DNA of 64,000 bases from Austropuccinia psidii. Its lineage: Eukaryota > Basidiomycota > Pucciniomycetes > Pucciniales > Sphaerophragmiaceae. Both the position numbers and the translations under genes were made by a program. The notes under the pieces are model-generated. The model was not told the origin of the DNA, made no database searches, and saw nothing but the letters and a program-made list of their open reading frames with translations. Of the stretch, positions 26,803 to 64,000 are shown in pieces (the stretch's first letter is position 1; each line of letters begins with the position of its first letter). The stretch spans positions 45,893,763-45,957,762 of the forward strand of contig JALGQZ010000012.1 in assembly GCA_023105745.1 (NCBI GenBank), read 5' to 3'.

Positions 26803-26846
<44 letters not shown>

Positions 26847-26897: not shown

Positions 26898-26935
<38 letters not shown>

Positions 26936-27159: not shown

Positions 27160-27196
<37 letters not shown>

Positions 27197-27230
27197 TTTA
27201 TTTTTTATCAAATTCAAAAATTATAATTAT
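24638..27230. other. AT-rich spacer within duplication copy A
   Basis: (TA)n near 24662-24697, mixed AT sequence, a more complex stretch at 25690-26440 without a recognisable gene, then homopolymers and long (TA)n arrays near 26811-26842 and 27163-27192. The open frame 25038-25223 is a low-complexity artefact. Confidence 0.75.
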
Positions 27231-27575
27231 ATTAGGGGGTGTCAAAGTTACCAAATCCCACACTCAAAATCCCAAGTTTTTTTTTTTCCAAAATCCCACA
27301 TTAATTTTTTGGGATTTGGGAAATCTCACACCTCAAGAGGTGAGGTATTTTGAGGTACAAAAACACAGGTTTTTTGGTACCAAATCCTGTGTTTAAATAC
27401 CAAAATCCCACCTTTAGCTTCCCATAAAGGCACATTTTTCAAACACACAACTCAGTAAGGGAATGTTAAATTGCATAAAAATTTCCTTCTCTTACATAAA
27501 ATCTGAATACACTCATCATTTATTAAGTTATTTGATTTCAAATTGCATTTACTACCAGCCTTTTCTTCATTTACC

Positions 27576-28798
27576 ATGCCCAAGGCATTGCAAAGGCTAC
27601 CTTTACTTCAGACCTTGAACTCACTTCAGTTCATTGATGCTCTCAACTCTGATAGTGATTCTGATATCCAGGAAGATATAATCTTATTAGATATGATAAC
27701 ATCACACAGATACATCAATCCTTGTAGAAGATATCCATCTCATTACATGTATACAATGAATGATTTACAGACATTATCATCTGAAAAGTTTTGACAGCTA
27801 TGTAGGACCACACATGAATCATTTGAAAAATTGGTTTCACAAATTCAAGCTGATAAAACCTTACAAAACTCATCACAAAACAAACAACACAATCCTGCCA
27901 TCCAATTGGCTGTGGAATTATTAAGGCTAGGATCAAATGGAAATGGGGCTGCTTTGGGAAAGATTGGAATGTTGTTTGGAATTAACCATGGGGCTATTGT
28001 GTTGTACACTCAAAGAGTCATCCAGATATTAATGAAGTTGAAGCGCAAAGTGATTGTGTGGCCAACAATAGAACAATGCAGAGAGATGTCTCAAGTAATG
28101 CAAGCAGAAGGCTTCCCTGGGTTCATTGGGTTTATTGATGGGAGTCTCATACCATTATCACAATGTCCTCCCAAGGATGGTGAAGCGTATTTTGATTGCA
28201 AAAAAAGGTAAGCTGTTGAATCTTTATTCTTTATTTCAATCTTACTGATGGTTTACATATAAGGTATTCTATGTCAATACAACTGGTTTGCAATATCAAC
28301 AAACAGTTCACTGCTCTGCATGTTGGTTGTACTGGGTCACTTCATGATTTGAATGTCTATCAACATATGAAAATAGCACAAAAACCTCAAGAGTTTTATG
28401 AAAAGGATCAATACTTACTGGCTGGTTCAGCATATGCAAGCTCTTCTTGGGTTGTTCCAGCATATAAGGGAGTTGTAGCACAGAATGAAGACAACCATTC
28501 TTTCAATTACTGTCTAGCAAAATCAAGGGTCAGAATCAAGCATGCAATTGGCCTTTTGAAGGGGAAGTGATTTTCTCTAAGGGAAATGTGAAATAAAATG
28601 AGGGATAATCATGAAATTGAACATTTTGTTAGTTGGGTTGTGTCTTGCATGATTTGAAATAATATGTTATCTCAAATTGGTGATGATTGGTTTGATTTAT
28701 ATGAAGATGATGATTCACCACATGTGGAAAATCTGGCCAACAATGAAATTGGGGAAGTTGTGCTAAATATTCATGGAAAATTAAACCAATCACTTTAA
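27576..28798 (+). pseudogene. PIF/Harbinger DDE transposase (H1, copy A), inactivated
   Basis: ATG at 27576. One intron with GT..AG ends at 28208-28263 joins the exons in frame. The first catalytic Asp is in Phe-Ile-Asp-Gly-Ser (about 28132-28146), and the Gly-Ser-Leu-His-Asp motif follows the intron. The second catalytic position, expected as Asp in Leu-Leu-Ala-Asp-Ser-Ala-Tyr, is Gly (about 28426). The expected Glu in Arg-Ile-Glu-His-Ala is Lys (about 28540). In-frame stops lie at 27792, 28568, 28589 and 28655; the natural end is probably TAA 28796-28798. The second and third stops look like Trp to stop and Arg to stop by C/G to T/A transitions. It converges on the oxygenase gene, which ends 51 bp downstream on the other strand. 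Confidence 0.87.
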
Positions 28799-28849
28799 AA
28801 TGGAAAAATAGTCAATTGTAAATTTCATCAGGACCAATGTTTTATAAAC

Positions 28850-30261
28850 TTAATTTATTGGCATACAACAGAGTGAAGATGTTATTAATAAAATAAAAGT
28901 ATTTACAATTTTTTTTTGTTTAGTTCTTTTTTGATCCTGCATATTTCTTTCAAAGTACCCATTGACTCTTGAATTGATTTTGGTGGGTGTCATTTTCAAG
29001 AATTTATCACCTACATTAAATAATTTATGGTTTATTTGAAAAGAACATCCAAAATGATTGATTTCATCATGATTGATAATTTGTGGAGGTGGTTTTGTTG
29101 TATGATGAACCATTGTTGATGCCTTCCAAAGAATTTTCATGATGCCAGGTTTTTTTGAAAAATTAATCTCCATTTTCAATTTGGGGAAGTGTAAGCCATG
29201 TCCAGAGGGGGTGAATACAGTAGGAAGTGGAAGGAAATCTTTTTTTGATACAAAAGAAAATATACCATAAGTCCAGGCATTGAGATTGTATAAATCTTTG
29301 TGTGGCTTATTGAAAAATCCATCTTGGGTGACAATGACATTGGTAAATGATTTGAATTCTTCCTTGGGATTGGCAGAAGTCCATTCAAGTTGACTGAAAT
29401 TGGGTAATTTGGCTGCTTCAATTAATGATTGATTTTCATTTGCTGCTAATTTTGAAAAATGGGAGATTCTTGAGTAAACAAATTGGTCATATTGATGAAG
29501 CTTGATCCATTGATTGTTATCTGTTTCAATTTGATGAGGAGTTAAACCGGGTTTTCTGGAGTAAATACCTAATATTTTTGTAATGAGTCAGTAATTATTA
29601 CGGTAATATGCCAAAAATATTACACACCTGCAGATTTTCCAGCATCAGAACCAGATTGAAACCCAATACCTTTCAGAATTCCACCTTGGAGTTGCTTATT
29701 GGTTTTAATTTCTTGTTGATTTTGAGATAAGGACATTAATGTCATGATGATGTTTTGAAGCATTTGAGAGTGGCCAGAAGAATTATCAAATGGGGTTATT
29801 TCATATATGATGACAGGCAAAAATGGCTTGGATGCTTTATCAATGAGGATATAAGGATGGGGGAGAGTGTTAAGTGATGGAAGTTTTAACCATGAGGAAT
29901 TGGCAGATTTCATGTCAATCGAAATTGTTGAAAAGTTTTTAATTTCTCTTTTGGAATGGCCAAGATGAGACATTATTCTTTTTTAATCATGGATGTGTTG
30001 TCTTTGGCTTTGGGTGAGCTTTCTTTTATTATTTAATTTGGTATTATTATCCTCATGATGTTCTATATTTGGTTTAGTCCTAACCATGACATCAAGAGGA
30101 GTAATATGAGCTTCATCATCTTTCAAATCATTATGATGATGTGCTGAGTCTGGTTTAGTCCTAACCATGACATCATCAAAATGATTGGAAGAATGAGAGA
30201 GAGGAGGAGATTTTTTTTTGAATTTTAAGGATGATGGAAGGGATGGGAAATTAAATGACAT
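28850..30261 (-). pseudogene. TET/JBP-like 2-oxoglutarate/Fe(II) oxygenase carried by Harbinger H1 (copy A), one stop codon
   Basis: Two minus-strand exons: ATG at 30259-30261 to 29628, intron 29569-29627 (GT..AG, 59 bp) and 29568 to TAA 28850-28852. Joined, they give about 450 codons with a single premature stop (TAA 29983-29985). The N-terminus is basic and Ser/His-rich with a direct repeat Val-Met-Val-Arg-Thr-Lys-Pro. Exon 2 is fully open and resembles the Tet-like 2OG-Fe(II) oxygenase proteins of rusts: His-Lys-Asp (the Fe-binding HxD) in Asn-Lys-Pro-His-Lys-Asp-Leu-Tyr near 29295-29310, and a distal His pair (His-His-Thr-Thr) near 29100. TET/JBP enzymes oxidise 5-methylcytosine or thymine in DNA. 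Assignment is from motifs and memory of the family, not a search. Activity of this copy is doubtful unless the stop is read through. Confidence 0.72.
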
Positions 30262-30381
30262 TGCAAAATAAATTCTTATAATTAATCCTCCCCTATATGA
30301 ACAAATAAATAAAAAAGTGAAACAAAAATCAAAATAAAAAATCAATCAAGGGTCAGTAATGATTATTATCCCAAGAAAGGA

Positions 30382-30600
30382 AAAAAAGGAGAAAAAATAT
30401 CATCAGTAAAAAAAAGATCATTATCAGTAAATGATTTTTGAAATAAAATAAATGAATTAAAAAAAAATAAAAAAAAACATCATTATCAGTAAATGATTTT
30501 TCAAATAACATAAATGATTAAAAAAAATCATTATCAGTAAAAGATTTTTGAAATAAAATAAATGAATAAAAAAAAATCAGTAAATTATTATTCAAATTCA
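30382..30600. repeat. Minisatellite of ATCATTATCAGTAAATGATT-type units
   Basis: About four imperfect copies of a 50-60 bp unit (CATTATCAGTAAATGATTTT, then GAAATAAAATAAATGA and poly-A) directly upstream of the oxygenase start. The core ATCATT..AATGAT is self-complementary. The same array is in copy B near 52668-52886. Confidence 0.75.
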
Positions 30601-30732
30601 ATAAATGAATAATAAGAAAAAAAAAACAAATGAAATCAGTTTGAAAATTCCAGAAATGAAAAAGAAAAAAAAAAGATCATCAGTATTTTTTTTTAATTAA
30701 ATGATAGAATTAAAAAAATAAAAATAAAAATA

Positions 30733-30903
30733 ATCATTCTAATGGCCTCTGGGGGCCATTAGAATGATAAATAACTAAAAAGATGCCGAATCAATTCTGA
30801 ATCAATTTGGGAGGCCTTCCAAATTGATTCTGAATTGATTCGGAGCCATTTGAAGGCCTCAGGCCCTGGAACCTCCCAGGAGCCTATTTGGGAGGTTCCA
30901 GGG
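30733..30903. repeat. Three consecutive long hairpins inside H1 (copy A)
   Basis: Hairpin 1: perfect 15-bp arms 30733-30747 and 30754-30768 (core CTAATGGCC/GGCCATTAG). Hairpin 2: 25-bp arms 30786-30810 and 30819-30843 with one mismatch. Hairpin 3: perfect 14-bp arms 30864-30877 and 30890-30903 (CCCTGGAACCTCCC/GGGAGGTTCCAGGG). They lie between the oxygenase start and the end of the SANT gene. GC content is well above the surroundings. Confidence 0.9.
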
Positions 30904-31814
30904 TTAGTGAGGTGGATGATGATTGATGATGGTGATGGGTGGGTTAGTTGTGGATGATGATGGTGATGGGTGGGTGAGTTTGGGAGGTGCAAAAAAATGA
31001 ATAAAAAAATTTTTAAAGACAAAAAAAAAATTACCTATAGAAAAACAAAAAAAAATTAGAAAAAAATGGTTGTGATTAAACAAAAAGAAGAGAAATTCAC
31101 TTACCTGAATTTTAAAAAAAGTGGGTTTTTTTTAGAGGGAAGGGTGAAAAGTAAAATTAGAAAAAAATTAATTGAGAATTAAAAAATCAAAAAAAATTGG
31201 TGAATTTTTTTTAAGAGGGTGGGGTGAAAAGTAAAAAAAAAAAAAATGAAATTTAAGATTTGAAATTAAAAAAAAAGGTGTTTTTTTTTAAATTGGAGGG
31301 GTGAAAAGTAAAAATAAAAAATAATAAATTAAAAGAAATTAAAGAAAAAAATCAACTTTAAAAAAAAAAATTAAAAATCAAAAATAAACAAAACAAGGGA
31401 CATTGCCCAATTAAAAGTTGAAACCCTTCAAACTAAAAAATAAAAAATAACCATTAAATTAAAAAAAACATATAGAAAAAGATGAAAAAATTAAAAAAAA
31501 ACCATAAAATGACATTTTCATAAAAAAGGAAAAAAGCCATCATTGAATTTGATTTTTGAACAGACTTCATATAAATTCTCAATGCAAAACTTGCCCAAAT
31601 TTTCAAATCTGTCGGAAATTGCAAATAAATGTCATATGAAATGGAAATTGCAAGTTGGTGCCCCAATTATGCATAAACATTGAAATTTCCATTTGGTAAT
31701 AAAGTGGAGTTAGATTTCATGACATAAAATCAATAATCAAACATAAACATAAGATTTATTGAACAAGCACCACATATAAATTGATCACATTACATATATG
31801 TAATAAGTTATTTC

Positions 31815-32976
31815 TTATTGATTAATGCCAGAATGCGTTCCAGCTCCCCGATTGGCCTGCTTGATGACAATGCCGCTATAGTGAGATCCATCTGGCATTG
31901 CTTTTCCTTCAATTCCACTTTTCTTTTTCAAATTCATATTGCTTTGCATGTTGCTTCTCCTTGAACTCCATTTGCTTTTGCAACTTGACTTCTTCAAACC
32001 GTTGCTTGCTTTCTCTTCATTCCACCTCTCCCTGTCCCACTCCAAACAAGCATTGTCACTGGTTTCACGGGCTACAAATCATGAATTTAGTCAGTGGGAT
32101 TGATCAGAGTATCCATAAGTCCAAAGCATACCCTTTTGCCATGATTCAAGCAAATTGGCATATGTCAGTGCAAACATATCCATTGGCCTTTTCCTAGAGC
32201 CACTATTGTCATTCAAGTTGGGTGTCAATGCTCAATTACGCTTTTGCGTTGAATGCGTTATGGATTTAATTTGCTGTTCAAAGGAGAAATAATCAACAAT
32301 GGATTTCATAAGTATCAGGCTTAAGCATACTTACTGATTCAACTTGAAGGTTTTCCGCTTGAACCAAGTCATCTTCATTATGAACCAAAGGAACAAGATT
32401 GATAGGTGATTCCAATCCATTATTCTCCTTTGAAAAGCACATGAACTTTAATTATCACAGGTAAAAAAGGAAAAGACAATAACTTACCTTATCAGGCAAA
32501 ACATCATCATCATCACCATTTAAGCTGTCTTTTGCTTGTGAATCATAGCTTGCAAACGGAGTGACATTGGGATTGTGGCCAAAGAGCGCATCCATTTCAG
32601 CATAGCAAGGACACATACTTTCAAGCTTTTCACTAATTGACTTTATTCCTTTACTCTCATCTTCTTCTGTTATTCCAGCCCCATTCAAATTCTCAAATTT
32701 TTTTGCTGCCATATATTTCTTTTTATATGTTCGCCATTGATCTCGGATGCTGCTTGAACTAAGGTTTAGTTGATTATGTGATTTTTTGTTGACCTCCATC
32801 GCCATGAGCTGAAATCCATGCTTCTTTGATGAGGGAGGTCTTCCAATAGATTTTGAGCCACTAGTACCAAAACATGACTCAAAATTGGCTTTGACTGAAA
32901 GCCAATTAATTATGGTTAAATAATCTGTACATATTAAGTGACCTGATGGATGAGGCAGGCTAGAGGTTATCTTCAT
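31815..32976 (-). pseudogene. Myb/SANT-like DNA-binding protein of Harbinger H1 (copy A), decayed
   Basis: Exon 1 starts at ATG 32976 and runs to about 32488. It contains a Myb/SANT-like trihelical domain (His-Leu-Ile-Cys-Thr-Asp-Tyr at the start, Trp-Arg-Thr-Tyr-Lys-Lys-Lys-Tyr in the middle), then Met-Cys-Pro-Cys-Tyr and Asn-Pro-Asn-Val-Thr-Pro, as in rust Harbinger partner proteins. A GT donor lies at 32487-32486; a short acidic exon follows (about 32432-32345), then an exon with one stop near 32243 and the last exon from about 32073. Near 31993 a 1-bp shift displaces a Lys/Glu/Gln-rich coiled-coil frame from the annotated one. In PIF/Harbinger systems this second protein binds the terminal repeats and brings the transposase to DNA or the nucleus. 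Confidence 0.8.
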
Positions 32977-33286
32977 ATCTGTCTTGATTTGGATTGAGGC
33001 ATTATTATATGGATGAAGAAGTATAAATGGACTGTAAGCTGTTTGGTCAGATTGTCTAAAATGGAGTGTAGAAGAATATGTTGTGCAGGTATGAATTGTG
33101 AGTACTAATTTGGGTTAGGTTTCAAGCTGAAATCCCAGATGCATGGGATTTGGTCAAAATACCAGGGGACTCAGATAAAATGCCATGGGATTTACACATA
33201 AAAAACCCGGGATTTAGTGTTGGGATTTGGGGTCCAAATCCTGTGTTATTTTAAGGCAGGATTTGGTGACTTTGACACCCCCTATT

Positions 33287-36472: not shown

Positions 36473-36765
36473 AGGGGGTTTCAAAGCTACACAATCCCAA
36501 ACTCAAAATCCTGTTTTTTTATCCCCAAATTCCAATACGAGGTTTTGGGATTTGAAAAATCCCACAACTCAAGAGGTGTGGTATCTTGAGGTAAAAAAAC
36601 TAGGGTTTTTGCCTCAAAGTCTCATTTTGGGATACTAAAATACTGTCTTTGGTTTTACTGAAAGCATAATTTTTTTGATAAAAAACTCATTAAGGTTATT
36701 AAACTTCCATTCTCTTTCATAAACTCTGAATAGAATGGTAATTTATCAAAGAATTCTATTTCAAA

Positions 36766-38010
36766 TTGAATCTAATATTGAAATTTTCATCAAAGGCATC
36801 CCAAAAGTTACCTTTAATTCAGAAATTAAAATCCCTTCATTTCATGGATGTTTTTTACTTTGATAATTATTCATATATACAGGAATATATAAGCCTATTA
36901 GATATGATAAAATCACAAAGATACATAAATACTAATAGAAGATATCCTTCATGTTACATGTATATTTTGAATGATTTACAAACCTTATCCGCTGAAATTT
37001 TTTTCCAGCTTTGTTGAAAAAAACATTAGACTTTTGAAATCTTTTTGGAACAAATTCAAGATGAAAAAAACATTCAAAATTAATCACAACAAAATAATAA
37101 TCCTTCCATACAATTGGCCTTGGCATTATCAAGGTGAGGATAAAATGGAAATGGGGCAGCTTTGGGAAAGATTGGAATGTTGTTTGTAATTAGCCATGGG
37201 GATATTGTTTTTTACACTCAAAGAGTGATTGGAATATTAATAAAGTTAAAGATAAGAATGATTGTGTGGCCAAAAATAGAACAACATAGAGATATTTCAC
37301 AAGCTATGGAGGCAGAAGGCTTCCCTAGGTGCATTGGATTTGTTGGTTGGAGTCTCATACAATTATAAAAATAACCCCCTCAATGATGATGAAAACTATT
37401 TTCATTGTAAAAAGAGGCAAGATTTGAAATTTTCATACTTGATTACATTTTGACTTATTATTCAAAATTAAGGTATTCCATGTCAATACAACTGGTTTGC
37501 AATATAAACAAACAGTTCACTGCTCTACATGTTGGGTGTACTGGCTCAATTAATTATTCAAATTTATATTAACATATGAAAATAGCATAAATGCCTCAAT
37601 AATTTTATTAAAAATATCAGCACCTACTAGCCAATTCAGCATATGCAAGCTTTCCTTGGGTTGTTCCAGCTTATAAGGGAGTTTTGGCACAGAATGAAGA
37701 TAAATGTACTTTAAATTACTTTTCAGAAACATAAAGGGTCATAATTGATAATGAAATTAGAATTTTGAAGTGTGGGCGGTTTTCTCTAAGGGAAATATAA
37801 AATATAATGGGGAATAATAAAGAAGTAGAATAATATGTTAGTTGGGTTATTTCTTGTATGATTTTACATAATATGTTGGTAAAAATAGGAGATTAATAGT
37901 TTGATTTATATTAAGATGATGATCCACCACAAGTAAAAAGTCTGTAAAGTATGGAAAATGGGGAAGAACCTGTACATATGCATGAGAAAATTAAGTGTAT
38001 TACTTTGTCA
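36766..38010 (+). pseudogene. Harbinger transposase remnant (H2, copy A)
   Basis: Alignable by eye to the H1 transposase over its whole length but split by many stops and indels. The first catalytic Asp context reads Phe-Val-Gly-Trp-Ser, so that Asp is lost; the second position is Asn (Leu-Leu-Ala-Asn-Ser-Ala-Tyr, about 37629); the Glu position reads Asp or is lost. The Phe-Ser-Leu-Arg-Glu tail is kept. Confidence 0.8.
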
Positions 38011-38119
38011 TGGAAAGATAATCAACTCTTAATTTCATAATGAAAATTTACTTATGTACTAAATTTAATGGCCTAAAACAGGGAGGAAATTTGATTGATC
38101 AAATGAAACTATTTGCAAT

Positions 38120-39474
38120 TTTCTTACTTTTTAGCTCTCTTTTAGTCCTTCTTATTTCTTTGCAAGGAACCATTGACTTTTGATTTGATCTCAGAAGGTG
38201 TCATTTTTAAAAATTTCTGACTTACATTAAATAATTTATGGCTGATTTGAAAAGAAAATCTGAAATGAGTGACTTCTTCATTATTCATAATTTCTAGAGG
38301 AGGTTTTGATGTATTATGAACCATTGATGATGTATTACAAAGAATTTCAATGGTTCTAGGTTTCTTTGAAAAATAAATATTAATTGTTAATTTGAAAAAG
38401 TGAAATTCATGTGAAGTTGGGGGAATACAGCTGGAAGTGGATGAAAATTATTTTTGGAAATAAAATGAAATATACCATAACTCCAGGAATTCAGATAACT
38501 AACATCTTGATGTGGCTTATTAAAAAATACATCTTGAGTGACAATGACATTTGTAACTGATTTTCATTCTTCTTTGTTATTGGCCAAAGTCCATTCACGG
38601 TTATTTAAATTCAGTAATTTAGCAGCTTCCATTAATTATTGATTATAATTTGAAGCTAATTGAGAAAAATAAAAATTCTAGAATAAATTAAATCTTCATA
38701 TTTTTCAAGTTTTAACAATTGAAGATTATCTTGTTCAATTTCATGAGTTTTAAAACCAGGTGTTTGGGAGTAAAGAACTATGTTTTTTGAATCAATTAGT
38801 AGTTATTAGTATAGAAAGTAAAAAAAATATCACAAACCTGCAGATTTTTCAGAATCAGAACCTGGAAAAAAGCCAATACATTTCATAATTCTCCCTAGGA
38901 TATTTTTATTGGTTTTTATTTCTTGTCAAATTTTGGATAAGCTAATTAAAGTAAAAATAATATTCTCTAAGTTGTGAGAGTTTCCACAAGAATTGTAAAA
39001 AGGAGTGGTTTCATAAATTAAAACTGGTAAAAAAGGATTCTTGGTTTCATCAATTCTGAAATAAGGATTATGTAGAGTATTTATTGATAGAAGTTTTGAC
39101 CATGTGGCATTTGACACTTTATTATCAATTGAGGTGGATGAGATATATTTATATATGATATTTCAGAATTTAAAATTTGTGAGGATATTTGTTTTCAATC
39201 ATTAATATGTTGTCTTTGTCTTTGGGTGAGTTTTCTTTTATGATTTTCATCTGTATTACTAACCTAATGATGTTCTATATTTGGTTTAGTCCTAACCATT
39301 ACATGAAAAGTAGTAATATGACTTTAATCATCTTTAAAGCCATTCTGATGATTTACTGAATATGGTTTAGTCCTAAAAATGAAACCATCAGATTGGTTTT
39401 TTTTGAGAGAGAGAGAGCAGAAGATTTTTTTAAAATTTTAATGACAAAGGGAGGGGATTGGTATGAAAAGACAT
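38120..39474 (-). pseudogene. TET/JBP-like oxygenase remnant (H2, copy A)
   Basis: Homologous to the H1 oxygenase on the same strand, start ATG equivalent at 39474. The intervals 38142-38324 and 38926-39117 still show clear protein similarity (Phe-Gln-Ile-Ser-His-Lys-Leu-Phe; Phe-Leu-Pro-Val-Leu-Ile-Tyr-Glu). The HxD motif survives as His-Gln-Asp near 38510, but the distal His pair has become His-Asn. Several stops and indels break the frame. Confidence 0.72.
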
Positions 39475-40981
39475 TGAAAAAATGAAAACTTTATAAATGA
39501 TCCAACCCTATATTAAAATAAAATTGAAATAAAAAACAATAAGCATCACCATAAATAATCATAAAGATATACAAAAATTGATTAATCAGCGTCGTCATAC
39601 CTCATCATAAAGATATAAAAAATAAACAAATCAGAATAATTATACAGATATATATATATATAAGAAAATTAAGAATCAGAATAATCAATCAGAAATGTAA
39701 GAGAATAAAAAAAAGGTGATTAATTAGATTAAGAATAGTAAAAAAAATAAATTATCATAATTATCCTGGACTATGATAAGAAATATATAATGATTTTTTG
39801 TTTCATCATTCAATATGATGAAAAAAAAGGAATAATAAATTGAATTAGTAGTATGGAAGGCCTCAGATGGATTCCAAAATTCTTCAGGAGGCCATCCTAA
39901 GCAATTTGGGGGGATTGGGAGTAAAATTCAAAAAAGGCTCCAAATAGATTTGGAATAGATTTGGGATGCATTATGAATAAATTCACATTGATTCAGAACC
40001 TACCATTGTGATTATTGGGAGGCTCTAGATGGCTGGTTGGGTTGAAGTTAATGATGATAGGGTGGTGGGTGATGGATGACTGACAATGAGGGGTAGGCTT
40101 CAGGGTTCAGAGATGGGTGGTGGGGTAGGATGTAAGGGTGAATGGGTGGTGGGCGTTGTAATGTATGATGATAGCATTGTAGAAGGTGATGATGATGATG
40201 GTTAAGGTGATTGATGTTTGAATGATGAGAATCTTCAAGATAAATAATAAAAAAACACACACTTTATGATTTTTTTTAATAAATATCAGAAATAAATAAA
40301 AAAAACTCTTGAGTGGAATTTCTAAAAAAAGGATTAAAAGAGTTTTAGTAAGAATTTTCTGAGTGAATAATTGAAAAGAAAAAAATACCAGTTTTTTTTT
40401 ATTCAAATGAAGTTGGATTAATTGAATTTATAATTTATGAAAAATGAAAATTGTGATAAGAGGAATTCTTGAATTCAAACTTGAAAAAGAAATAAAATTT
40501 GAGCTCAAAATTTTCCCAAATTCCAATTTTTAAAAAAATGGAATTTGAATTTCAAAATAAAAGTTGAAATTTGGAATTTTTGCCGAAATTCCAAATAAAA
40601 ACCATTTTTCTTTTTCAAAACAACCAATTAAAAATAAACACACCTCCACAATCACCCAGCATGAAAAGTAGTTAACACTTTATCATAATCAGCAGAAAAG
40701 TTCCATTCAAATTTTCATAATAGAATTTCAGGTATGAGTTATTATAAAAACAATGGAAACTAATTACTATTTGATGTCCAAATACAAGGTGGGATAAGCC
40801 TTGGGAAATAAATTATTGTCATAGCTAACTGATTAATTCCATGACCTAAATGTATAAGTTCATTTATAATTACTTGGCACCATTTAATATTTGATATGTT
40901 TTATATATGAATTACCAAATAAAAAAGAAATAATTTATACCTATTACATAATGATAAAATATCATTTTTTATTAATTAATG

Positions 40982-42138
40982 TCAGAATATGTTTGAGATC
41001 AGATATTTACCTGCTCAATGAAAATTCAGCCATAGTGAGATCCATCTGGTATTGCTTTTCCTTCAGATAAAATTCCCAATTCAACTGTTATTTTTAAAAT
41101 GCATATTTAATGTTGTGTTGTTTCTCATCAAACTCCATTTTTTTTTGTAAATTCATTTCTTCAAACCATTAAATTTAAGTATTCCTCACTTTCTCTTCAT
41201 GCCACCTTTCCTTTTCTCACTCCAAACAAGCATTATCGTTTTCCTCATGGGCTGAGAACCATAGTTTTTCTTAGTAGGCTTGAAAAGAGTAACAATAATT
41301 TGAAGACATACCCTTTTGACATGATTCCAGAAAACATATCCATGAAATCTTTTCTAGATCCACTCTTGTCATTCAAGTTGGGGTTCAATGATTGATTATG
41401 CTTTTGTGTAAAATGAGCTATAGATTTACTTAGTTTGTGGAAGAAGAAATAATCAACATTGAATTTTAAAAATATCAGTCTTAAACATACTTACTGATTC
41501 ATCATTTGGGTTTTCTGCTTCAAAAAACTCATCATAATTATCAAGAAAAGAATCAAGATTGAGAGCTGATTCCAAATGATTAAGGAAATTTCAAATTTAA
41601 ATGAGCTTTCATTATATAAGGTAAAAAAAAGGAGATTATGACTTGCCTTATTCATTAACTGTTTATCTTCATCATAATTATTTAAACTATCATTTTATTG
41701 CAAATCATAGCTCGCAATGGGAGTAATATTGGGCTTGTGGCTAAAGAGTGCATCCATTTCAACATAGCATGGACACATATTTTTGATATTTTTACTCATT
41801 GATTTTATACCTTTACTCTCATATTATTTGGTTAGTACAGCCCTGGTTCAATTTAAAATTTTTTTAAAAGCCATATACTTATTTTCATATGTTTTCTATC
41901 AATCTTGAATGCTTCTTGAACTAAGGTTTAAGCCATGAAATTATTTTTTGTTTACCTCAATGGCCATAATTTGAAATTCATGATTCTTTGATAAAGTGGG
42001 CCTTCCTATTGAAGTTGGGCCACAATTACCATAACATGACTGAAAATTTGATTTTATTGAAAGTCAATTGATTATTTTTAAATAATCTGTGTGTATCAAA
42101 TGACCTGATTGATGAGAAATGCCCAAGGTGGTCTTCAT
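40982..42138 (-). pseudogene. Myb/SANT-like gene remnant (H2, copy A)
   Basis: Corresponds to the H1 SANT gene by position and sequence: start equivalent at 42138, a Met-Asp-Ala-Leu-Phe-like segment near 41745, and an end near 40982. Frames are short and interrupted throughout. Confidence 0.68.
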
Positions 42139-42708
42139 ATCTGACTTGATGTGTTTTGCTTTGGTGCAAGGCATTATGATATGTTCGAAGAAATATAAAG
42201 TGATTGTAAGCTTTTTGATAAGATTTTTCAAAAAATATTTTTGAAGAATATGTTGTACAGTTATTAATCATGAATTGTGAATACTCATATGGGTTAGGCT
42301 TCAAACTCAAGCCCAATACTCATGGTATTTGGTTAAAATAGCTGGGGACTCAGTTTACATCTCATTCAATTTACACATGCAAAACCTGGGTTTTTTCCTT
42401 GGGATTTGGAAACCAAATCCTGTGTTATTTTGTGGTGGAATTTGGTGACTTTGAAACCCCCTAATATTTATTCAATTAAAAAAAGAAAGTTTATTTCTTC
42501 CTTGAATTGGTTTAAAATAATAATAAAATTAATAATTAAAAATTACAAAAAAAAAAAAAAAATGTTTAAAGAAATAATTTTTTTTCTAATATAATTTTTT
42601 GAATTTAGGTTTTTTTTGTAACATTATTTTATAAAACGTTTTGATAATAATATCATTAATAAAGATCAATAATGAATTTTATTATGAAATATATAATAAA
42701 TAAATTCA

Positions 42709-49518: not shown

Positions 49519-49860
49519 AGGGGGTGTCAAAGTTACCAAATCCCACACTCAAAATCCCAAGTTTTTTTTTTTCCAAAATCCCACATTAATTTTTTGGGAT
49601 TTGGGAAATCTCACACCTCAAGAGGTGAGGTATTTTGAGGTACAAAAACACAGGTTTTTTGGTACCAAATCCTGTGTTTAAATACCAAAATCCCACCTTT
49701 AGCTTCCCATAAAGGCACATTTTTCAAACACACAACTCAGTAAGGGAATGTTAAATTGCATAAAAATTTCCTTCTCTTACATAAAATCTGAATACACTCA
49801 TCATTTATTAAGTTATTTGATTTCAAATTGCATTTACTACCAGCCTTTTCTTCATTTACC

Positions 49861-51083
49861 ATGCCCAAGGCATTGCAAAGGCTACCTTTACTTCAGACCT
49901 TGAACTCACTTCAGTTCATTGATGCTCTCAACTCTGATAGTGATTCTGATATCCAGGAAGATATAATCTTATTAGATATGATAACATCACACAGATACAT
50001 CAATCCTTGTAGAAGATATCCATCTCATTACATGTATACAATGAATGATTTACAGACATTATCATCTGAAAAGTTTTGACAGCTATGTAGGACCACACAT
50101 GAATCATTTGAAAAATTGGTTTCACAAATTCAAGCTGATAAAACCTTACAAAACTCATCACAAAACAAACAACACAATCCTGCCATCCAATTGGCTGTGG
50201 AATTATTAAGGCTAGGATCAAATGGAAATGGGGCTGCTTTGGGAAAGATTGGAATGTTGTTTGGAATTAACCATGGGGCTATTGTGTTGTACACTCAAAG
50301 AGTCATCCAGATATTAATGAAGTTGAAGCGCAAAGTGATTGTGTGGCCAACAATAGAACAATGCAGAGAGATGTCTCAAGTAATGCAAGCAGAAGGCTTC
50401 CCTGGGTTCATTGGGTTTATTGATGGGAGTCTCATACCATTATCACAATGTCCTCCCAAGGATGGTGAAGCGTATTTTGATTGCAAAAAAAGGTAAGCTG
50501 TTGAATCTTTATTCTTTATTTCAATCTTACTGATGGTTTACATATAAGGTATTCTATGTCAATACAACTGGTTTGCAATATCAACAAACAGTTCACTGCT
50601 CTGCATGTTGGTTGTACTGGGTCACTTCATGATTTGAATGTCTATCAACATATGAAAATAGCACAAAAACCTCAAGAGTTTTATGAAAAGGATCAATACT
50701 TACTGGCTGGTTCAGCATATGCAAGCTCTTCTTGGGTTGTTCCAGCATATAAGGGAGTTGTAGCACAGAATGAAGACAACCATTCTTTCAATTACTGTCT
50801 AGCAAAATCAAGGGTCAGAATCAAGCATGCAATTGGCCTTTTGAAGGGGAAGTGATTTTCTCTAAGGGAAATGTGAAATCAAATGAGGGATAATCATGAA
50901 ATTGAACATTTTGTTAGTTGGGTTGTGTCTTGCATGATTTGAAATAATATGTTATCTCAAATTGGTGATGATTGGTTTGATTTATATGAAGATGATGATT
51001 CACCACATGTGGAAAATCTGGCCAACAATGAAATTGGGGAAGTTGTGCTAAATATTCATGGAAAATTAAACCAATCACTTTAA
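49861..51083 (+). pseudogene. Harbinger transposase (H1, copy B), inactivated
   Basis: Same frame, intron (50493-50548), four premature stops and lost catalytic Asp and Glu as copy A. The only coding difference I noticed is an AAA to CAA change (Lys to Gln) near 50880, just past the third stop. Confidence 0.86.
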
Positions 51084-51134
51084 AATGGAAAAATAGTCAA
51101 TTGTAAATTTCATCAGGACCAATGTTTTATAAAC

Positions 51135-52546
51135 TTAATTTATTGGCATACAACAGAGTGAAGATGTTATTAATAAAATAAAAGTATTTACAATTTTTTT
51201 CTGTTTAGTTCTTTTTTGATCCTGCATATTTCTTTCAAAGTACCCATTGACTCTTGAATTGATTTTGGTGGGTGTCATTTTCAAGAATTTATCACCTACA
51301 TTAAATAATTTATGGTTTATTTGAAAAGAACATCCAAAATGATTGATTTCATCATGATTGATAATTTGTGGAGGTGGTTTTGTTGTATGATGAACCATTG
51401 TTGATGCCTTCCAAAGAATTTTCATGATGCCAGGTTTTTTTGAAAAATTAATCTCCATTTTCAATTTGGGGAAGTGTAAGCCATGTCCAGAGGGGGTGAA
51501 TACAGTAGGAAGTGGAAGGAAATCTTTTTTTGATACAAAAGAAAATATACCATAAGTCCAGGCATTGAGATTGTATAAATCTTTGTGTGGCTTATTGAAA
51601 AATCCATCTTGGGTGACAATGACATTGGTAAATGATTTGAATTCTTCCTTGGGATTGGCAGAAGTCCATTCAAGTTGACTGAAATTGGGTAATTTGGCTG
51701 CTTCAATTAATGATTGATTTTCATTTGCTGCTAATTTTGAAAAATGGGAGATTCTTGAGTAAACAAATTGGTCATATTGATGAAGCTTGATCCATTGATT
51801 GTTATCTGTTTCAATTTGATGAGGAGTTAAACCGGGTTTTCTGGAGTAAATACCTAATATTTTTGTAATTAGTCAGTAATTATTACGGTAATATGCCAAA
51901 AATATTACACACCTGCAGATTTTCCAGCATCAGAACCAGATTGAAACCCAATACCTTTCAGAATTCCACCTTGGAGTTGCTTATTGGTTTTAATTTCTTG
52001 TTGATTTTGAGATAAGGACATTAATGTCATGATGATGTTTTGAAGCATTTGAGAGTGGCCAGAAGAATTATCAAATGGGGTTATTTCATATATGATGACA
52101 GGCAAAAATGGCTTGGATGCTTTATCAATGAGGATATAAGGATGGGGGAGAGTGTTAAGTGATGGAAGTTTTAACCATGAGGAATTGGCAGATTTCATGT
52201 CAATCGAAATTGTTGAAAAGTTTTTAATTTCTCTTTTGGAATGGCCAAGATGAGACATTATTCTTTTTTAATCATGGATGTGTTGTCTTTGGCTTTGGGT
52301 GAGCTTTCTTTTATTATTTAATTTGGTATTATTATCCTCATGATGTTCTATATTTGGTTTAGTCCTAACCATGACATCAAGAGGAGTAATATGAGCTTCA
52401 TCATCTTTCAAATCATTATGATGATGTGCTGAGTCTGGTTTAGTCCTAACCATGACATCATCAAAATGATTGGAAGAATGAGAGAGAGGAGGAGATTTTT
52501 TTTTGAATTTTAAGGATGATGGAAGGGATGGGAAATTAAATGACAT
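51135..52546 (-). pseudogene. TET/JBP-like 2OG/Fe(II) oxygenase (H1, copy B), one stop codon
   Basis: Counterpart of the copy A gene: ATG at 52544-52546, intron 51854-51912, single premature TAA at 52268-52270, and end at 51135. The HxD and distal His motifs are unchanged. One difference from copy A (G to T near 51870) falls in the intron. Another (T to C near 51202) falls close to the C-terminus and changes a Lys codon run at most. Confidence 0.72.
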
Positions 52547-53018
52547 TGCAAAATAAATTCTTATAATTAATCCTCCCCTATATGAACAAATAAATAAAAA
52601 AGTGAAACAAAAATCAAAATAAAAAATCAATCAAGGGTCAGTAATGATTATTATCCCAAGAAAGGAAAAAAAGGAGAAAAAATATCATCAGTAAAAAAAA
52701 GATCATTATCAGTAAATGATTTTTGAAATAAAATAAATGAATTAAAAAAAAATAAAAAAAAACATCATTATCAGTAAATGATTTTTCAAATAACATAAAT
52801 GATTAAAAAAAATCATTATCAGTAAAAGATTTTTGAAATAAAATAAATGAATAAAAAAAAATCAGTAAATTATTATTCAAATTCAATAAATGAATAATAA
52901 GAAAAAAAAAACAAATGAAATCAGTTTGAAAATTCCAGAAATGAAAAAGAAAAAAAAAAAGATCATCAGTATTTTTTTTTAATTAAATGATAGAATTAAA
53001 AAAATAAAAATAAAAATA

Positions 53019-53189
53019 ATCATTCTAATGGCCTCTGGGGGCCATTAGAATGATAAATAACTAAAAAGATGCCGAATCAATTCTGAATCAATTTGGGAGG
53101 CCTTCCAAATTGATTCTGAATTGATTCGGAGCCATTTGAAGGCCTCAGGCCCTGGAACCTCCCAGGAGCCTATTTGGGAGGTTCCAGGG
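53019..53189. repeat. Three consecutive long hairpins inside H1 (copy B)
   Basis: Exact counterpart of 30733-30903, with the same arms and loops, so the structure has not changed since the duplication. Confidence 0.88.
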
Positions 53190-54100
53190 TTAGTGAGGTG
53201 GATGATGATTGATGATGGTGATGGGTGGGTTAGTTGTGGATGATGATGGTGATGGGTGGGTGAGTTTGGGAGGTGCAAAAAAATGAATAAAAAAATTTTT
53301 AAAGACAAAAAAAAAATTACCTATAGAAAAACAAAAAAAAATTAGAAAAAAATGGTTGTGATTAAACAAAAAGAAGAGAAATTCACTTACCTGAATTTTA
53401 AAAAAAGTGGGTTTTTTTTAGAGGGAAGGGTGAAAAGTAAAATTAGAAAAAAATTAATTGAGAATTAAAAAATCAAAAAAAATTGGTGAATTTTTTTTAA
53501 GAGGGTGGGGTGAAAAGTAAAAAAAAAAAAAATGAAATTTAAGATTTGAAATTAAAAAAAAAGGTGTTTTTTTTTAAATTGGAGGGGTGAAAAGTAAAAA
53601 TAAAAAATAATAAATTAAAAGAAATTAAAGAAAAAAATCAACTTTAAAAAAAAAAATTAAAAATCAAAAATAAACAAAACAAGGGACATTGCCCAATTAA
53701 AAGTTGAAACCCTTCAAACTAAAAAATAAAAAATAACCATTAAATTAAAAAAAACATATAGAAAAAGATGAAAAAATTAAAAAAAAACCATAAAATGACA
53801 TTTTCATAAAAAAGGAAAAAAGCCATCATTGAATTTGATTTTTGAACAGACTTCATATAAATTCTCAATGCAAAACTTGCCCAAATTTTCAAATCTGTCG
53901 GAAATTGCAAATAAATGTCATATGAAATGGAAATTGCAAGTTGGTGCCCCAATTATGCATAAACATTGAAATTTCCATTTGGTAATAAAGTGGAGTTAGA
54001 TTTCATGACATAAAATCAATAATCAAACATAAACATAAGATTTATTGAACAAGCACCACATATAAATTGATCACATTACATATATGTAATAAGTTATTTC

Positions 54101-55262
54101 TTATTGATTAATGCCAGAATGCGTTCCAGCTCCCCGATTGGCCTGCTTGATGACAATGCCGCTATAGTGAGATCCATCTGGCATTGCTTTTCCTTCAATT
54201 CCACTTTTCTTTTTCAAATTCATATTGCTTTGCATGTTGCTTCTCCTTGAACTCCATTTGCTTTTGCAACTTGACTTCTTCAAACCGTTGCTTGCTTTCT
54301 CTTCATTCCACCTCTCCCTGTCCCACTCCAAACAAGCATTGTCACTGGTTTCACGGGCTACAAATCATGAATTTAGTCAGTGGGATTGATCAGAGTATCC
54401 ATAAGTCCAAAGCATACCCTTTTGCCATGATTCAAGCAAATTGGCATATGTCAGTGCAAACATATCCATTGGCCTTTTCCTAGAGCCACTATTGTCATTC
54501 AAGTTGGGTGTCAATGCTCAATTACGCTTTTGCGTTGAATGCGTTATGGATTTAATTTGCTGTTCAAAGGAGAAATAATCAACAATGGATTTCATAAGTA
54601 TCAGGCTTAAGCATACTTACTGATTCAACTTGAAGGTTTTCCGCTTGAACCAAGTCATCTTCATTATGAACCAAAGGAACAAGATTGATAGGTGATTCCA
54701 ATCCATTATTCTCCTTTGAAAAGCACATGAACTTTAATTATCACAGGTAAAAAAGGAAAAGACAATAACTTACCTTATCAGGCAAAACATCATCATCATC
54801 ACCATTTAAGCTGTCTTTTGCTTGTGAATCATAGCTTGCAAACGGAGTGACATTGGGATTGTGGCCAAAGAGCGCATCCATTTCAGCATAGCAAGGACAC
54901 ATACTTTCAAGCTTTTCACTAATTGACTTTATTCCTTTACTCTCATCTTCTTCTGTTATTCCAGCCCCATTCAAATTCTCAAATTTTTTTGCTGCCATAT
55001 ATTTCTTTTTATATGTTCGCCATTGATCTCGGATGCTGCTTGAACTAAGGTTTAGTTGATTATGTGATTTTTTGTTGACCTCCATCGCCATGAGCTGAAA
55101 TCCATGCTTCTTTGATGAGGGAGGTCTTCCAATAGATTTTGAGCCACTAGTACCAAAACATGACTCAAAATTGGCTTTGACTGAAAGCCAATTAATTATG
55201 GTTAAATAATCTGTACATATTAAGTGACCTGATGGATGAGGCAGGCTAGAGGTTATCTTCAT
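54101..55262 (-). pseudogene. Myb/SANT-like DNA-binding protein (H1, copy B), decayed
   Basis: Counterpart of the copy A gene at 31815-32976, with the same exons, in-frame stop and coiled-coil frame displacement. No amino-acid difference was seen in the first exon. Confidence 0.8.
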
Positions 55263-55571
55263 ATCTGTCTTGATTTGGATTGAGGCATTATTATATGGAT
55301 GAAGAAGTATAAATGGACTGTAAGCTGTTTGGTCAGATTGTCTAAAATGGAGTGTAGAAGAATATGTTGTGCAGGTATGAATTGTGAGTACTAATTTGGG
55401 TTAGGTTTCAAGCTGAAATCCCAGATGCATGGGATTTGGTCAAAATACCAGGGGACTCAGATAAAATGCCATGGGATTTACACATAAAAAACCCGGGATT
55501 TAGTGTTGGGATTTGGGGTCCAAATCCTGTGTTATTTTAAGGCAGGATTTGGTGACTTTGACACCCCCTAT

Positions 55572-58757: not shown

Positions 58758-59050
58758 AGGGGGTTTCAAAGCTACACAATCCCAAACTCAAAATCCTGTT
58801 TTTTTATCCCCAAATTCCAATACGAGGTTTTGGGATTTGAAAAATCCCACAACTCAAGAGGTGTGGTATCTTGAGGTAAAAAAACTAGGGTTTTTGCCTC
58901 AAAGTCTCATTTTGGGATACTAAAATACTGTCTTTGGTTTTACTGAAAGCATAATTTTTTTGATAAAAAACTCATTAAGGTTATTAAACTTCCATTCTCT
59001 TTCATAAACTCTGAATAGAATGGTAATTTATCAAAGAATTCTATTTCAAA

Positions 59051-60295
59051 TTGAATCTAATATTGAAATTTTCATCAAAGGCATCCCAAAAGTTACCTTT
59101 AATTCAGAAATTAAAATCCCTTCATTTCATGGATGTTTTTTACTTTGATAATTATTCATATATACAGGAATATATAAGCCTATTAGATATGATAAAATCA
59201 CAAAGATACATAAATACTAATAGAAGATATCCTTCATGTTACATGTATATTTTGAATGATTTACAAACCTTATCCGCTGAAATTTTTTTCCAGCTTTGTT
59301 GAAAAAAACATTAGACTTTTGAAATCTTTTTGGAACAAATTCAAGATGAAAAAAACATTCAAAATTAATCACAACAAAATAATAATCCTTCCATACAATT
59401 GGCCTTGGCATTATCAAGGTGAGGATAAAATGGAAATGGGGCAGCTTTGGGAAAGATTGGAATGTTGTTTGTAATTAGCCATGGGGATATTGTTTTTTAC
59501 ACTCAAAGAGTGATTGGAATATTAATAAAGTTAAAGATAAGAATGATTGTGTGGCCAAAAATAGAACAACATAGAGATATTTCACAAGCTATGGAGGCAG
59601 AAGGCTTCCCTAGGTGCATTGGATTTGTTGGTTGGAGTCTCATACAATTATAAAAATAACCCCCTCAATGATGATGAAAACTATTTTCATTGTAAAAAGA
59701 GGCAAGATTTGAAATTTTCATACTTGATTACATTTTGACTTATTATTCAAAATTAAGGTATTCCATGTCAATACAACTGGTTTGCAATATAAACAAACAG
59801 TTCACTGCTCTACATGTTGGGTGTACTGGCTCAATTAATTATTCAAATTTATATTAACATATGAAAATAGCATAAATGCCTCAATAATTTTATTAAAAAT
59901 ATCAGCACCTACTAGCCAATTCAGCATATGCAAGCTTTCCTTGGGTTGTTCCAGCTTATAAGGGAGTTTTGGCACAGAATGAAGATAAATGTACTTTAAA
60001 TTACTTTTCAGAAACATAAAGGGTCATAATTGATAATGAAATTAGAATTTTGAAGTGTGGGCGGTTTTCTCTAAGGGAAATATAAAATATAATGGGGAAT
60101 AATAAAGAAGTAGAATAATATGTTAGTTGGGTTATTTCTTGTATGATTTTACATAATATGTTGGTAAAAATAGGAGATTAATAGTTTGATTTATATTAAG
60201 ATGATGATCCACCACAAGTAAAAAGTCTGTAAAGTATGGAAAATGGGGAAGAACCTGTACATATGCATGAGAAAATTAAGTGTATTACTTTGTCA
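59051..60295 (+). pseudogene. Harbinger transposase remnant (H2, copy B)
   Basis: Counterpart of 36766-38010, with the same stops and lost catalytic residues. Confidence 0.8.
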
Positions 60296-60404
60296 TGGAA
60301 AGATAATCAACTCTTAATTTCATAATGAAAATTTACTTATGTACTAAATTTAATGGCCTAAAACAGGGAGGAAATTTGATTGATCAAATGAAACTATTTG
60401 CAAT

Positions 60405-61759
60405 TTTCTTACTTTTTAGCTCTCTTTTAGTCCTTCTTATTTCTTTGCAAGGAACCATTGACTTTTGATTTGATTTCAGAAGGTGTCATTTTTAAAAATT
60501 TCTGACTTACATTAAATAATTTATGGCTGATTTGAAAAGAAAATCTGAAATGAGTGACTTCTTCATTATTCATAATTTCTAGAGGAGGTTTTGATGTATT
60601 ATGAACCATTGATGATGTATTACAAAGAATTTCAATGGTTCTAGGTTTCTTTGAAAAATAAATATTAATTGTTAATTTGAAAAAGTGAAATTCATGTGAA
60701 GTTGGGGGAATACAGCTGGAAGTGGATGAAAATTATTTTTGGAAATAAAATGAAATATACCATAACTCCAGGAATTCAGATAACTAACATCTTGATGTGG
60801 CTTATTAAAAAATACATCTTGAGTGACAATGACATTTGTAACTGATTTTCATTCTTCTTTGTTATTGGCCAAAGTCCATTCACGGTTATTTAAATTCAGT
60901 AATTTAGCAGCTTCCATTAATTATTGATTATAATTTGAAGCTAATTGAGAAAAATAAAAATTCTAGAATAAATTAAATCTTCATATTTTTCAAGTTTTAA
61001 CAATTGAAGATTATCTTGTTCAATTTCATGAGTTTTAAAACCAGGTGTTTGGGAGTAAAGAACTATGTTTTTTGAATCAATTAGTAGTTATTAGTATAGA
61101 AAGTAAAAAAAATATCACAAACCTGCAGATTTTTCAGAATCAGAACCTGGAAAAAAGCCAATACATTTCATAATTCTCCCTAGGATATTTTTATTGGTTT
61201 TTATTTCTTGTCAAATTTTGGATAAGCTAATTAAAGTAAAAATAATATTCTCTAAGTTGTGAGAGTTTCCACAAGAATTGTAAAAAGGAGTGGTTTCATA
61301 AATTAAAACTGGTAAAAAAGGATTCTTGGTTTCATCAATTCTGAAATAAGGATTATGTAGAGTATTTATTGATAGAAGTTTTGACCATGTGGCATTTGAC
61401 ACTTTATTATCAATTGAGGTGGATGAGATATATTTATATATGATATTTCAGAATTTAAAATTTGTGAGGATATTTGTTTTCAATCATTAATATGTTGTCT
61501 TTGTCTTTGGGTGAGTTTTCTTTTATGATTTTCATCTGTATTACTAACCTAATGATGTTCTATATTTGGTTTAGTCCTAACCATTACATGAAAAGTAGTA
61601 ATATGACTTTAATCATCTTTAAAGCCATTCTGATGATTTACTGAATATGGTTTAGTCCTAAAAATGAAACCATCAGATTGGTTTTTTTTGAGAGAGAGAG
61701 AGCAGAAGATTTTTTTAAAATTTTAATGACAAAGGGAGGGGATTGGTATGAAAAGACAT
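60405..61759 (-). pseudogene. TET/JBP-like oxygenase remnant (H2, copy B)
   Basis: Counterpart of 38120-39474. The fragments 60427-60609 and 61211-61402 retain recognisable similarity. One C to T difference from copy A is visible near 60474. Confidence 0.72.
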
Positions 61760-63266
61760 TGAAAAAATGAAAACTTTATAAATGATCCAACCCTATATTA
61801 AAATAAAATTGAAATAAAAAACAATAAGCATCACCATAAATAATCATAAAGATATACAAAAATTGATTAATCAGCGTCGTCATACCTCATCATAAAGATA
61901 TAAAAAATAAACAAATCAGAATAATTATACAGATATATATATATATAAGAAAATTAAGAATCAGAATAATCAATCAGAAATGTAAGAGAATAAAAAAAAG
62001 GTGATTAATTAGATTAAGAATAGTAAAAAAAATAAATTATCATAATTATCCTGGACTATGATAAGAAATATATAATGATTTTTTGTTTCATCATTCAATA
62101 TGATGAAAAAAAAGGAATAATAAATTGAATTAGTAGTATGGAAGGCCTCAGATGGATTCCAAAATTCTTCAGGAGGCCATCCTAAGCAATTTGGGGGGAT
62201 TGGGAGTAAAATTCAAAAAAGGCTCCAAATAGATTTGGAATAGATTTGGGATGCATTATGAATAAATTCACATTGATTCAGAACCTACCATTGTGATTAT
62301 TGGGAGGCTCTAGATGGCTGGTTGGGTTGAAGTTAATGATGATAGGGTGGTGGGTGATGGATGACTGACAATGAGGGGTAGGCTTCAGGGTTCAGAGATG
62401 GGTGGTGGGGTAGGATGTAAGGGTGAATGGGTGGTGGGCGTTGTAATGTATGATGATAGCATTGTAGAAGGTGATGATGATGATGGTTAAGGTGATTGAT
62501 GTTTGAATGATGAGAATCTTCAAGATAAATAATAAAAAAACACACACTTTATGATTTTTTTTAATAAATATCAGAAATAAATAAAAAAAACTCTTGAGTG
62601 GAATTTCTAAAAAAAGGATTAAAAGAGTTTTAGTAAGAATTTTCTGAGTGAATAATTGAAAAGAAAAAAATACCAGTTTTTTTTTATTCAAATGAAGTTG
62701 GATTAATTGAATTTATAATTTATGAAAAATGAAAATTGTGATAAGAGGAATTCTTGAATTCAAACTTGAAAAAGAAATAAAATTTGAGCTCAAAATTTTC
62801 CCAAATTCCAATTTTTAAAAAAATGGAATTTGAATTTCAAAATAAAAGTTGAAATTTGGAATTTTTGCCGAAATTCCAAATAAAAACCATTTTTCTTTTT
62901 CAAAACAACCAATTAAAAATAAACACACCTCCACAATCACCCAGCATGAAAAGTAGTTAACACTTTATCATAATCAGCAGAAAAGTTCCATTCAAATTTT
63001 CATAATAGAATTTCAGGTATGAGTTATTATAAAAACAATGGAAACTAATTACTATTTGATGTCCAAATACAAGGTGGGATAAGCCTTGGGAAATAAATTA
63101 TTGTCATAGCTAACTGATTAATTCCATGACCTAAATGTATAAGTTCATTTATAATTACTTGGCACCATTTAATATTTGATATGTTTTATATATGAATTAC
63201 CAAATAAAAAAGAAATAATTTATACCTATTACATAATGATAAAATATCATTTTTTATTAATTAATG

Positions 63267-64000
63267 TCAGAATATGTTTGAGATCAGATATTTACCTGCT
63301 CAATGAAAATTCAGCCATAGTGAGATCCATCTGGTATTGCTTTTCCTTCAGATAAAATTCCCAATTCAACTGTTATTTTTAAAATGCATATTTAATGTTG
63401 TGTTGTTTCTCATCAAACTCCATTTTTTTTTGTAAATTCATTTCTTCAAACCATTAAATTTAAGTATTCCTCACTTTCTCTTCATGCCACCTTTCCTTTT
63501 CTCACTCCAAACAAGCATTATCGTTTTCCTCATGGGCTGAGAACCATAGTTTTTCTTAGTAGGCTTGAAAAGAGTAACAATAATTTGAAGACATACCCTT
63601 TTGACATGATTCCAGAAAACATATCCATGAAATCTTTTCTAGATCCACTCTTGTCATTCAAGTTGGGGTTCAATGATTGATTATGCTTTTGTGTAAAATG
63701 AGCTATAGATTTACTTAGTTTGTGGAAGAAGAAATAATCAACATTGAATTTTAAAAATATCAGTCTTAAACATACTTACTGATTCATCATTTGGGTTTTC
63801 TGCTTCAAAAAACTCATCATAATTATCAAGAAAAGAATCAAGATTGAGAGCTGATTCCAAATGATTAAGGAAATTTCAAATTTAAATGAGCTTTCATTAT
63901 ATAAGGTAAAAAAAAGGAGATTATGACTTGCCTTATTCATTAACTGTTTATCTTCATCATAATTATTTAAACTATCATTTTATTGCAAATCATAGCTCGC
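63267..64000 (-). pseudogene. Myb/SANT-like gene remnant (H2, copy B), cut by the window end
   Basis: Counterpart of 40982 to about 41715. It is the C-terminal part only; the start lies outside the window. Confidence 0.65.

Follow-up and report, generated by a model that had tools for sequence, protein, structure and literature searches.

The stretch analyzed here comprises 64,000 nucleotides of the rust fungus Austropuccinia psidii (GenBank assembly GCA_023105745.1, contig JALGQZ010000012.1, positions 45,893,763 to 45,957,762; hereafter the window). A first-pass annotation of this DNA had proposed a Harbinger transposon that combines a DDE transposase, a Myb/SANT-like partner and, as a third gene, a TET/JBP-like DNA-modification enzyme. 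The element, termed H1, is a PIF/Harbinger element of 6,050 bp at 27234-33283, with perfect 14-bp end repeats and the flanks ATT/ATT. Its terminal 14-mer, AGGGGGTGTCAAAG, is found exactly at 27234-27247 (plus strand) and 33270-33283 (minus strand); at up to three mismatches, nine matches occur in the window against 2.56 expected, a number reached in 0 of 100 shuffles. The transposase gene lies on the plus strand, the TET gene and the third gene on the minus strand. The repeats, the 3-bp flanks and the presence of transposase and oxygenase inside one pair of end repeats were confirmed. The features of H1 are as follows:

27231..27233, no strand: left 3-bp target site duplication ATT; the 3-bp size is backed by family flanks and a nested insertion
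27234..27258, plus strand: left terminal inverted repeat; perfect over its first 14 bp, agreeing with the right end at 24 of the first 25 positions
27576..28207, plus strand: transposase exon 1; start taken from the first-pass annotation, in-frame TGA at 27792-27794, first catalytic Asp present
28208..28263, plus strand: putative transposase intron of 56 bp, predicted from sequence; GT..AG ends checked
28264..28798, plus strand: transposase exon 2 with DDE_Tnp_4; premature TGA at 28568, 28589 and 28655, last stop at 28796, Glu changed to Lys
28850..29568, minus strand: TET/JBP-like exon 2, open; Tet-like 2-oxoglutarate (2OG)-Fe(II) oxygenase domain with H-x-D and conserved distal His
29569..29627, minus strand: putative TET intron of 59 bp, likewise predicted; GT..AG ends checked
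29628..30261, minus strand: TET/JBP-like exon 1; outer end taken from the first-pass annotation, in-frame TAA at 29983-29985
31815..32078, minus strand: likely final exon of the third gene; similar to the C-terminal part of relatives P0003 and P0006 in a by-eye comparison
32455..33114, minus strand: open main exon of the third gene, whose product is a Myb/SANT-like candidate with a match below cut-off
33259..33283, minus strand: right terminal inverted repeat, mirroring the left end
33284..33286, no strand: right 3-bp target site duplication ATT, flank sequence

H1 is a broken copy. Its transposase frame contains four premature TGA codons, a single one in exon 1 and the remaining three in exon 2, and has Lys at the position of the catalytic Glu. 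TET exon 1, which is similar to the N-terminal parts of the relatives P0175 and P0183, is interrupted by the TAA; the H-x-D motif and the distal His are retained. Neither H1 nor H2, a diverged second element of the window, looks autonomous.

Target site and gene retention in the family

The earlier call of a Harbinger transposase was supported by a match to the Pfam profile DDE_Tnp_4 (E 8e-15, 55.2 bits against a curated cut-off of 24.8). The oxygenase call was also upheld: the TET product of H1 matched the Tet-like profile 2OG-FeII_Oxy_6 (PF20515; E 9.7e-24, 85 bits against a curated cut-off of 27, profile positions 48-210 of 211) and has H-x-D and a distal His, the latter assigned from conservation and not from structure. 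The best-scoring TET relative among the matches listed is 82% identical, and the relatives come nearly all from A. psidii MF-1.

In order to characterize the family, we searched the genome (1.015 Gb, 84 contigs) for the exact 14-mer and found 1,899 occurrences (952 + 947), compared with 1 + 1 for the reversed pattern. We then analyzed a sample of 26 elements, consisting of H1, H2 and 24 pairs of forward and reverse end neighbours less than 10 kb apart; these 24, which all lie on contig 1 and have both ends exact, were taken from the 100 ends listed first, and the sample is not random. The catalytic residues D, D, E are complete in 12/26 elements, and 9/26 have D, D, K.

Perfect direct repeats of 3 bp (AAT or ATT) flank 21/26 elements, the middle flank base agrees in 25/26 (17 A/A, 8 T/T and one T/A), and AWT precedes 1,739 of the 1,899 genomic ends. 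An alternative reading of these flanks is TA beside GGGGG ends, as in the description of the Puccinia lineage PHISTA (see below), and we therefore made use of a nested site. Element L026 is inserted in the end of another family copy. When its flanks are joined at 3 bp, that end is re-formed: past the junction, 27-47 of 50 positions match in 25 of the 26 elements among the matches listed (the end of L026 itself included). A TA duplication was rejected, as the flanks joined accordingly match at 6-11 of 50 positions only. The joined flanks of L009, L014 and L015 likewise align to uninterrupted repeats in the loci examined or the window without three extra junction bases, with a 1-base gap close by in the case of L015. 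These results show that the family makes 3-bp AWT target duplications; together with its terminal inverted repeats, this is the combination by which PIF/Harbinger elements are recognized.

The TET C-terminal exon is present in 23/26 elements, between transposase and third gene and on the strand opposite to the transposase, and 18 of these 23, including H1 and H2, retain H-x-D and the distal His completely. Among sampled elements with any gene, 23/24 retain this exon. The exception, L019, has lost the bulk of transposase exon 2 together with the TET C-terminal exon in an internal deletion; part of TET exon 1 remains. L024 and L029 (2.2-2.3 kb, 93% identical to each other) have none of the three genes; their ends are 86-96% identical to H1, L015 and L030, and they are a non-autonomous derivative of the Harbinger family. 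All three TET-less elements look like deletion derivatives, and none of the 26 sampled elements combines transposase and third gene without TET. Within this sample, neither a lack of 2OG/Fe(II) similarity nor an original TET-less form between the same termini was found. The presence of the TET exon in 23/26 elements supports the proposal of a stable architecture as opposed to a chance capture.

Stop-free copies among the gap-free ones amount to 11/17 and 13/19 for the transposase segments, 11/14 and 11/19 for the TET segments and 5/12 for the third gene; these counts are blind to stops outside the chosen segments, and H1 counts as open throughout because the segments were cut from its stop-free pieces. 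The ratio of non-synonymous to synonymous substitution rates (dN/dS) was calculated on gap-free, stop-free segments only. For pairs with dS > 0.15, its mean was 0.23 for the TET C-terminal exon (34 pairs), 0.27 for the TET N-terminal exon (32), 0.18 (9) and 0.23 (21) for the transposase segments and 0.20 (4) for the third gene; over all pairs, it was 0.35 and 0.39 for the transposase, 0.26 and 0.30 for TET and 0.21 for the third gene. TET thus belongs to the core genes that the family retains, and the purifying selection on it is comparable to that on the transposase. That many copies are broken, H1 and H2 included, would suit a functionless passenger carried by chance, yet the dN/dS of 0.23-0.27 on TET and its retention in 23/24 gene-bearing elements make this reading very improbable.

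Divergence along the elements shifts near the TET intron, with two TET N-terminal versions at element positions of about 2250-2980. An alignment of the first 3.3 kb was obtained for 19/26 elements, and the two groups, chosen after inspecting this divergence, comprise five (L009, L016, L027, L031, L032) and ten members (H1, L010, L012, L014, L015, L017, L020, L023, L028, L030), with L011, L013, L022 and L025 ungrouped. In the transposase, the five-group differs from the ten-group by 9.3% and within itself by 9.5%; in the TET N-terminal part, the corresponding values are 21.7% and 11.8%. Transversions per site were 0.043 and 0.133 in the transposase and TET N-terminal comparisons, respectively. 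The simplest reading is that TET segments may have been exchanged between elements; Kojima 2025 (PMC12730594) reports that transposon superfamilies have exchanged TET genes.

Tet-like domains are abundant in the genome in general: PF20515 gave 7,499 first-look candidates, and of the best 150, which were scored, 150/150 exceeded the cut-off, many in long open frames. The top matches probably belong to other carriers, because they cover almost the entire domain within a single frame, whereas the form described here is split into exons. Such numbers far exceed the needs of this family and would fit an enzyme that chiefly serves transposition or acts in trans across the genome, and not on the silencing of its own family. 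TET and the transposase of these elements are under matching selection, which fits service to the own family and is still compatible with a trans effect; we consider this alternative unlikely.

Third gene and further copies in the window

The identity of the third protein is less clear. Its best Pfam match in H1 is Myb_DNA-bind_4 (E 0.034, below cut-off), a profile found below cut-off in 4/16 alignment members including H1 (best 0.014). A relative from the non-rust fungus Haplosporangium sp. (P0220, 44% identical) matches the same profile at overlapping positions (0.02), and relative P0006 shows a Rep3_N match instead (0.011, below cut-off). Some relatives carry the database names Myb/SANT-like or No apical meristem-associated; ten relatives so named were scanned against Pfam, with none over cut-off, two sub-threshold Myb matches and, in P0006, the Rep3_N match just given. 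A structural model of low confidence (predicted local distance difference test, pLDDT, 51) predicts several helices, including 62-75, 100-111 and 120-142, and a fold search with this model returned no significant match. The best-scoring relative among the matches listed is 92% identical, and the relatives are again nearly all from A. psidii MF-1. The protein may be a Myb/SANT-like DNA-binding partner, a reading that we regard as likely. Of the three genes first claimed, transposase and TET were borne out by Pfam, while the Myb/SANT label was not established.

The window contains three further copies:

36473..42462, plus strand: H2, diverged and decayed second element with the same gene order; flanks AAC/AAT, no exact repeat
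49519..55569, plus strand: H3, the H1 element in the 22.3-kb tandem duplicate, 99.93% identical to H1
58758..64000, plus strand: H4, the H2 duplicate, truncated by the window end; end-repeat match and duplication

H2 and H1 share 75.5% identity in their first 3.1 kb and 73.6% in the final 1.5 kb, and H2 has stops in 6/6 segments tested. A 22.3-kb tandem duplication makes 24637-41715 equal to 46919-64000 at 99.88%, both Harbinger elements included; it is either a recent event or an assembly artefact. A third independent element at 49519-55569 was ruled out by this identity. As both pairs lie in the duplication, H1/H3 represent one element and H2/H4 another, and from the 75.5% identity of H1 and H2 there are two independent copies in the window, not four. 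The first-pass view of two independently diverged elements of the same layout holds for the separate insertions and the shared gene order; both copies are broken.

Other mobile elements were also detected in the window. A MULE transposase domain at 12102-13706 (1.4e-18) with an AFT match directly upstream (6.8e-05, over cut-off) indicates a Mutator-like element. Weak reverse transcriptase and Tf2-1-like SH3/integrase matches (below cut-off) at 2026-2496 and 5414-6355, together with an inverted pair (3248-4665 and 6347-7731, 84% identical), were read as broken long terminal repeat retrotransposon material. At 19008-19703, a weak hAT-like RNase-H match was found (7.7e-05, below cut-off).

CpG decay and the possible role of the oxygenase

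The CpG decay of the family was analyzed in an alignment of 13/26 elements, those of 5.7-6.3 kb with H2 omitted. At majority CpG sites, C was read as T in 45.5% (TCG), 34.8% (GCG), 32.5% (ACG) and 31.5% (CCG) of cases, compared with 1.2-3.5% outside CpG, and the CpG observed/expected ratio is 0.145 in H1 and 0.09 in H2. The same decay reaches the active site of the transposase. The catalytic Glu codon is readable in 22 elements and reads AAG (Lys) in nine, each time after C. It is preceded by ATC in 14/22 (nine AAG, five with GAG kept) and by ATT or ATA in 7/22, all with GAG kept; H2 has GAT. Since ATC followed by GAG forms a CpG, the change from Glu to Lys lies at a former CpG.

In A. psidii, 5-methylcytosine (5mC) at CpG is present and enriched on transposons (PMC12774611), and the genome is CpG-depleted via deamination without a classic signature of repeat-induced point mutation (RIP), as described in PMC12774611 and PMC8063080; little RIP-like signature is reported for rusts (PMC12210899). 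From the CpG-specific decay and the published 5mCpG on A. psidii transposons, the substrate of a TET enzyme, methylated CpG, is probably present.

We weighed whether the oxygenase might act on this mark. It would oxidise 5mC at CpG sites of family members, which would relieve silencing and slow CpG mutation during the active phase of the family; after silencing, copies would decay by deamination, as H1 and H2. Alternatively, the enzyme might modify DNA otherwise, by thymine oxidation or by adding a larger group to 5mC, and mark element DNA for the transposase with no demethylation. JBP and CMD1 provide examples of such reactions. Other activity on cytosine or thymine is possible for PU-type enzymes, the type of the rust proteins, and their nearest solved relatives include CMD1, according to the account in PMC12730594. 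The CpG-specific decay, on the other hand, indicates 5mC as the available substrate, with no sign of another base, and we regard such a different chemistry as rather unlikely.

Several points weigh against a role in countering silencing. The sequence profile of the TET protein had no match among solved TET structures, and its predicted model reached a pLDDT of 38. For the PU-type TET/JBP enzymes of rusts, no activity is shown in the account of PMC12730594. The dN/dS values are biased somewhat downward because only open copies were used. Younger A. psidii transposon families are reported to be more methylated, not less (PMC12774611). Finally, the family is heavily CpG-mutated despite carrying TET, and these copies were not saved by the enzyme; protection would therefore be at best partial or confined to the active phase.

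All things considered, we think it fairly probable that H1 is a degenerate member of a PIF/Harbinger family that moves by cut-and-paste, is present in high copy number in A. psidii and in its full form encodes three proteins, and that its TET/JBP-like dioxygenase would counter silencing by CpG methylation. The anti-silencing role suggested in the first-pass annotation thus stays plausible from the CpG-specific C-to-T decay and the purifying selection on TET, and the idea itself was already put forward by Kojima 2025.

Relation to known TET-carrying transposons

Comparing our results to previous studies, PIF/Harbinger is not a new carrier of TET genes, as had been assumed at first: Kojima 2025 (PMC12730594) reports 15 Harbinger families that carry TET and have TA duplications. 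They come from six rust species, one of them A. psidii; PHISTA is the name given there to the Puccinia lineage, and the role proposed for TET is to act against silencing and against C-to-T hypermutation. The present finding is therefore of a known kind. Besides this study, no second report of TET in Harbinger was found at title and abstract level among the matches listed, and PMC12477816, in the part of its text available, mentions TET solely in a reference.

As described there, PHISTA resembles the family in that a single rust transposon unites a Harbinger-type transposase with a TET/JBP dioxygenase and a further, third protein, and the same role is proposed. However, PHISTA has TA duplications, whereas the A. 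psidii family has 3-bp AWT (exact in 21/26, plus the nested-site test), and the third proteins of PHISTA are all described as lacking a Myb/SANT domain, whereas ours has a weak sub-threshold match. The departure in target site may mean that the family belongs to another lineage or that the same ends were read differently. There is precedent for AWT outside PHISTA, because the Pangu subgroup (PMC12477816), which corresponds to Harbinger2 of Repbase (PMC12730594), makes ANT duplications that cover AWT; this likeness is by description, and that description, as far as available, mentions no TET gene for Pangu, unlike the family here. The Nuwa lineage of PIF/Harbinger, also compared by description, shares a transposase, a DNA-binding protein and 3-bp duplications with our family, but is described with two proteins and without TET (PMC12730594).

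More distant parallels exist in other superfamilies. KDZ transposons (Iyer et al., cited in PMC12730594) also carry a TET/JBP-like gene on a fungal DNA transposon, but their transposase is unrelated to that of Harbinger, and the Zisupton and Dileera cases have 8-bp duplications (PMC12730594). CcTET of Coprinopsis cinerea belongs to the same broad fungal TET/JBP class with H-x-D and distal His; it is of the AG type with demonstrated 5mC activity, whereas the rust enzymes are of the PU type (PMC12730594).

Some details thus differ from the published families, namely the 3-bp AWT duplication, the possible Myb/SANT-like third protein and the two diverged TET N-terminal versions. As a tentative possibility, which we hold to be somewhat doubtful, the A. 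psidii family could stand outside PHISTA as a Harbinger lineage with ANT duplications and a Myb/SANT-like partner, one that acquired TET independently and whose elements exchange the TET N-terminal half as a cassette.

With 1,899 recognisable ends and a possible methylation eraser in a gigabase fungal genome reported to be CpG-methylated and CpG-depleted, the family represents a natural experiment on transposon self-defence against methylation. With this set of elements, methylation levels and the pace of CpG loss can be compared directly, to see whether both are lower in the copies that carry TET.

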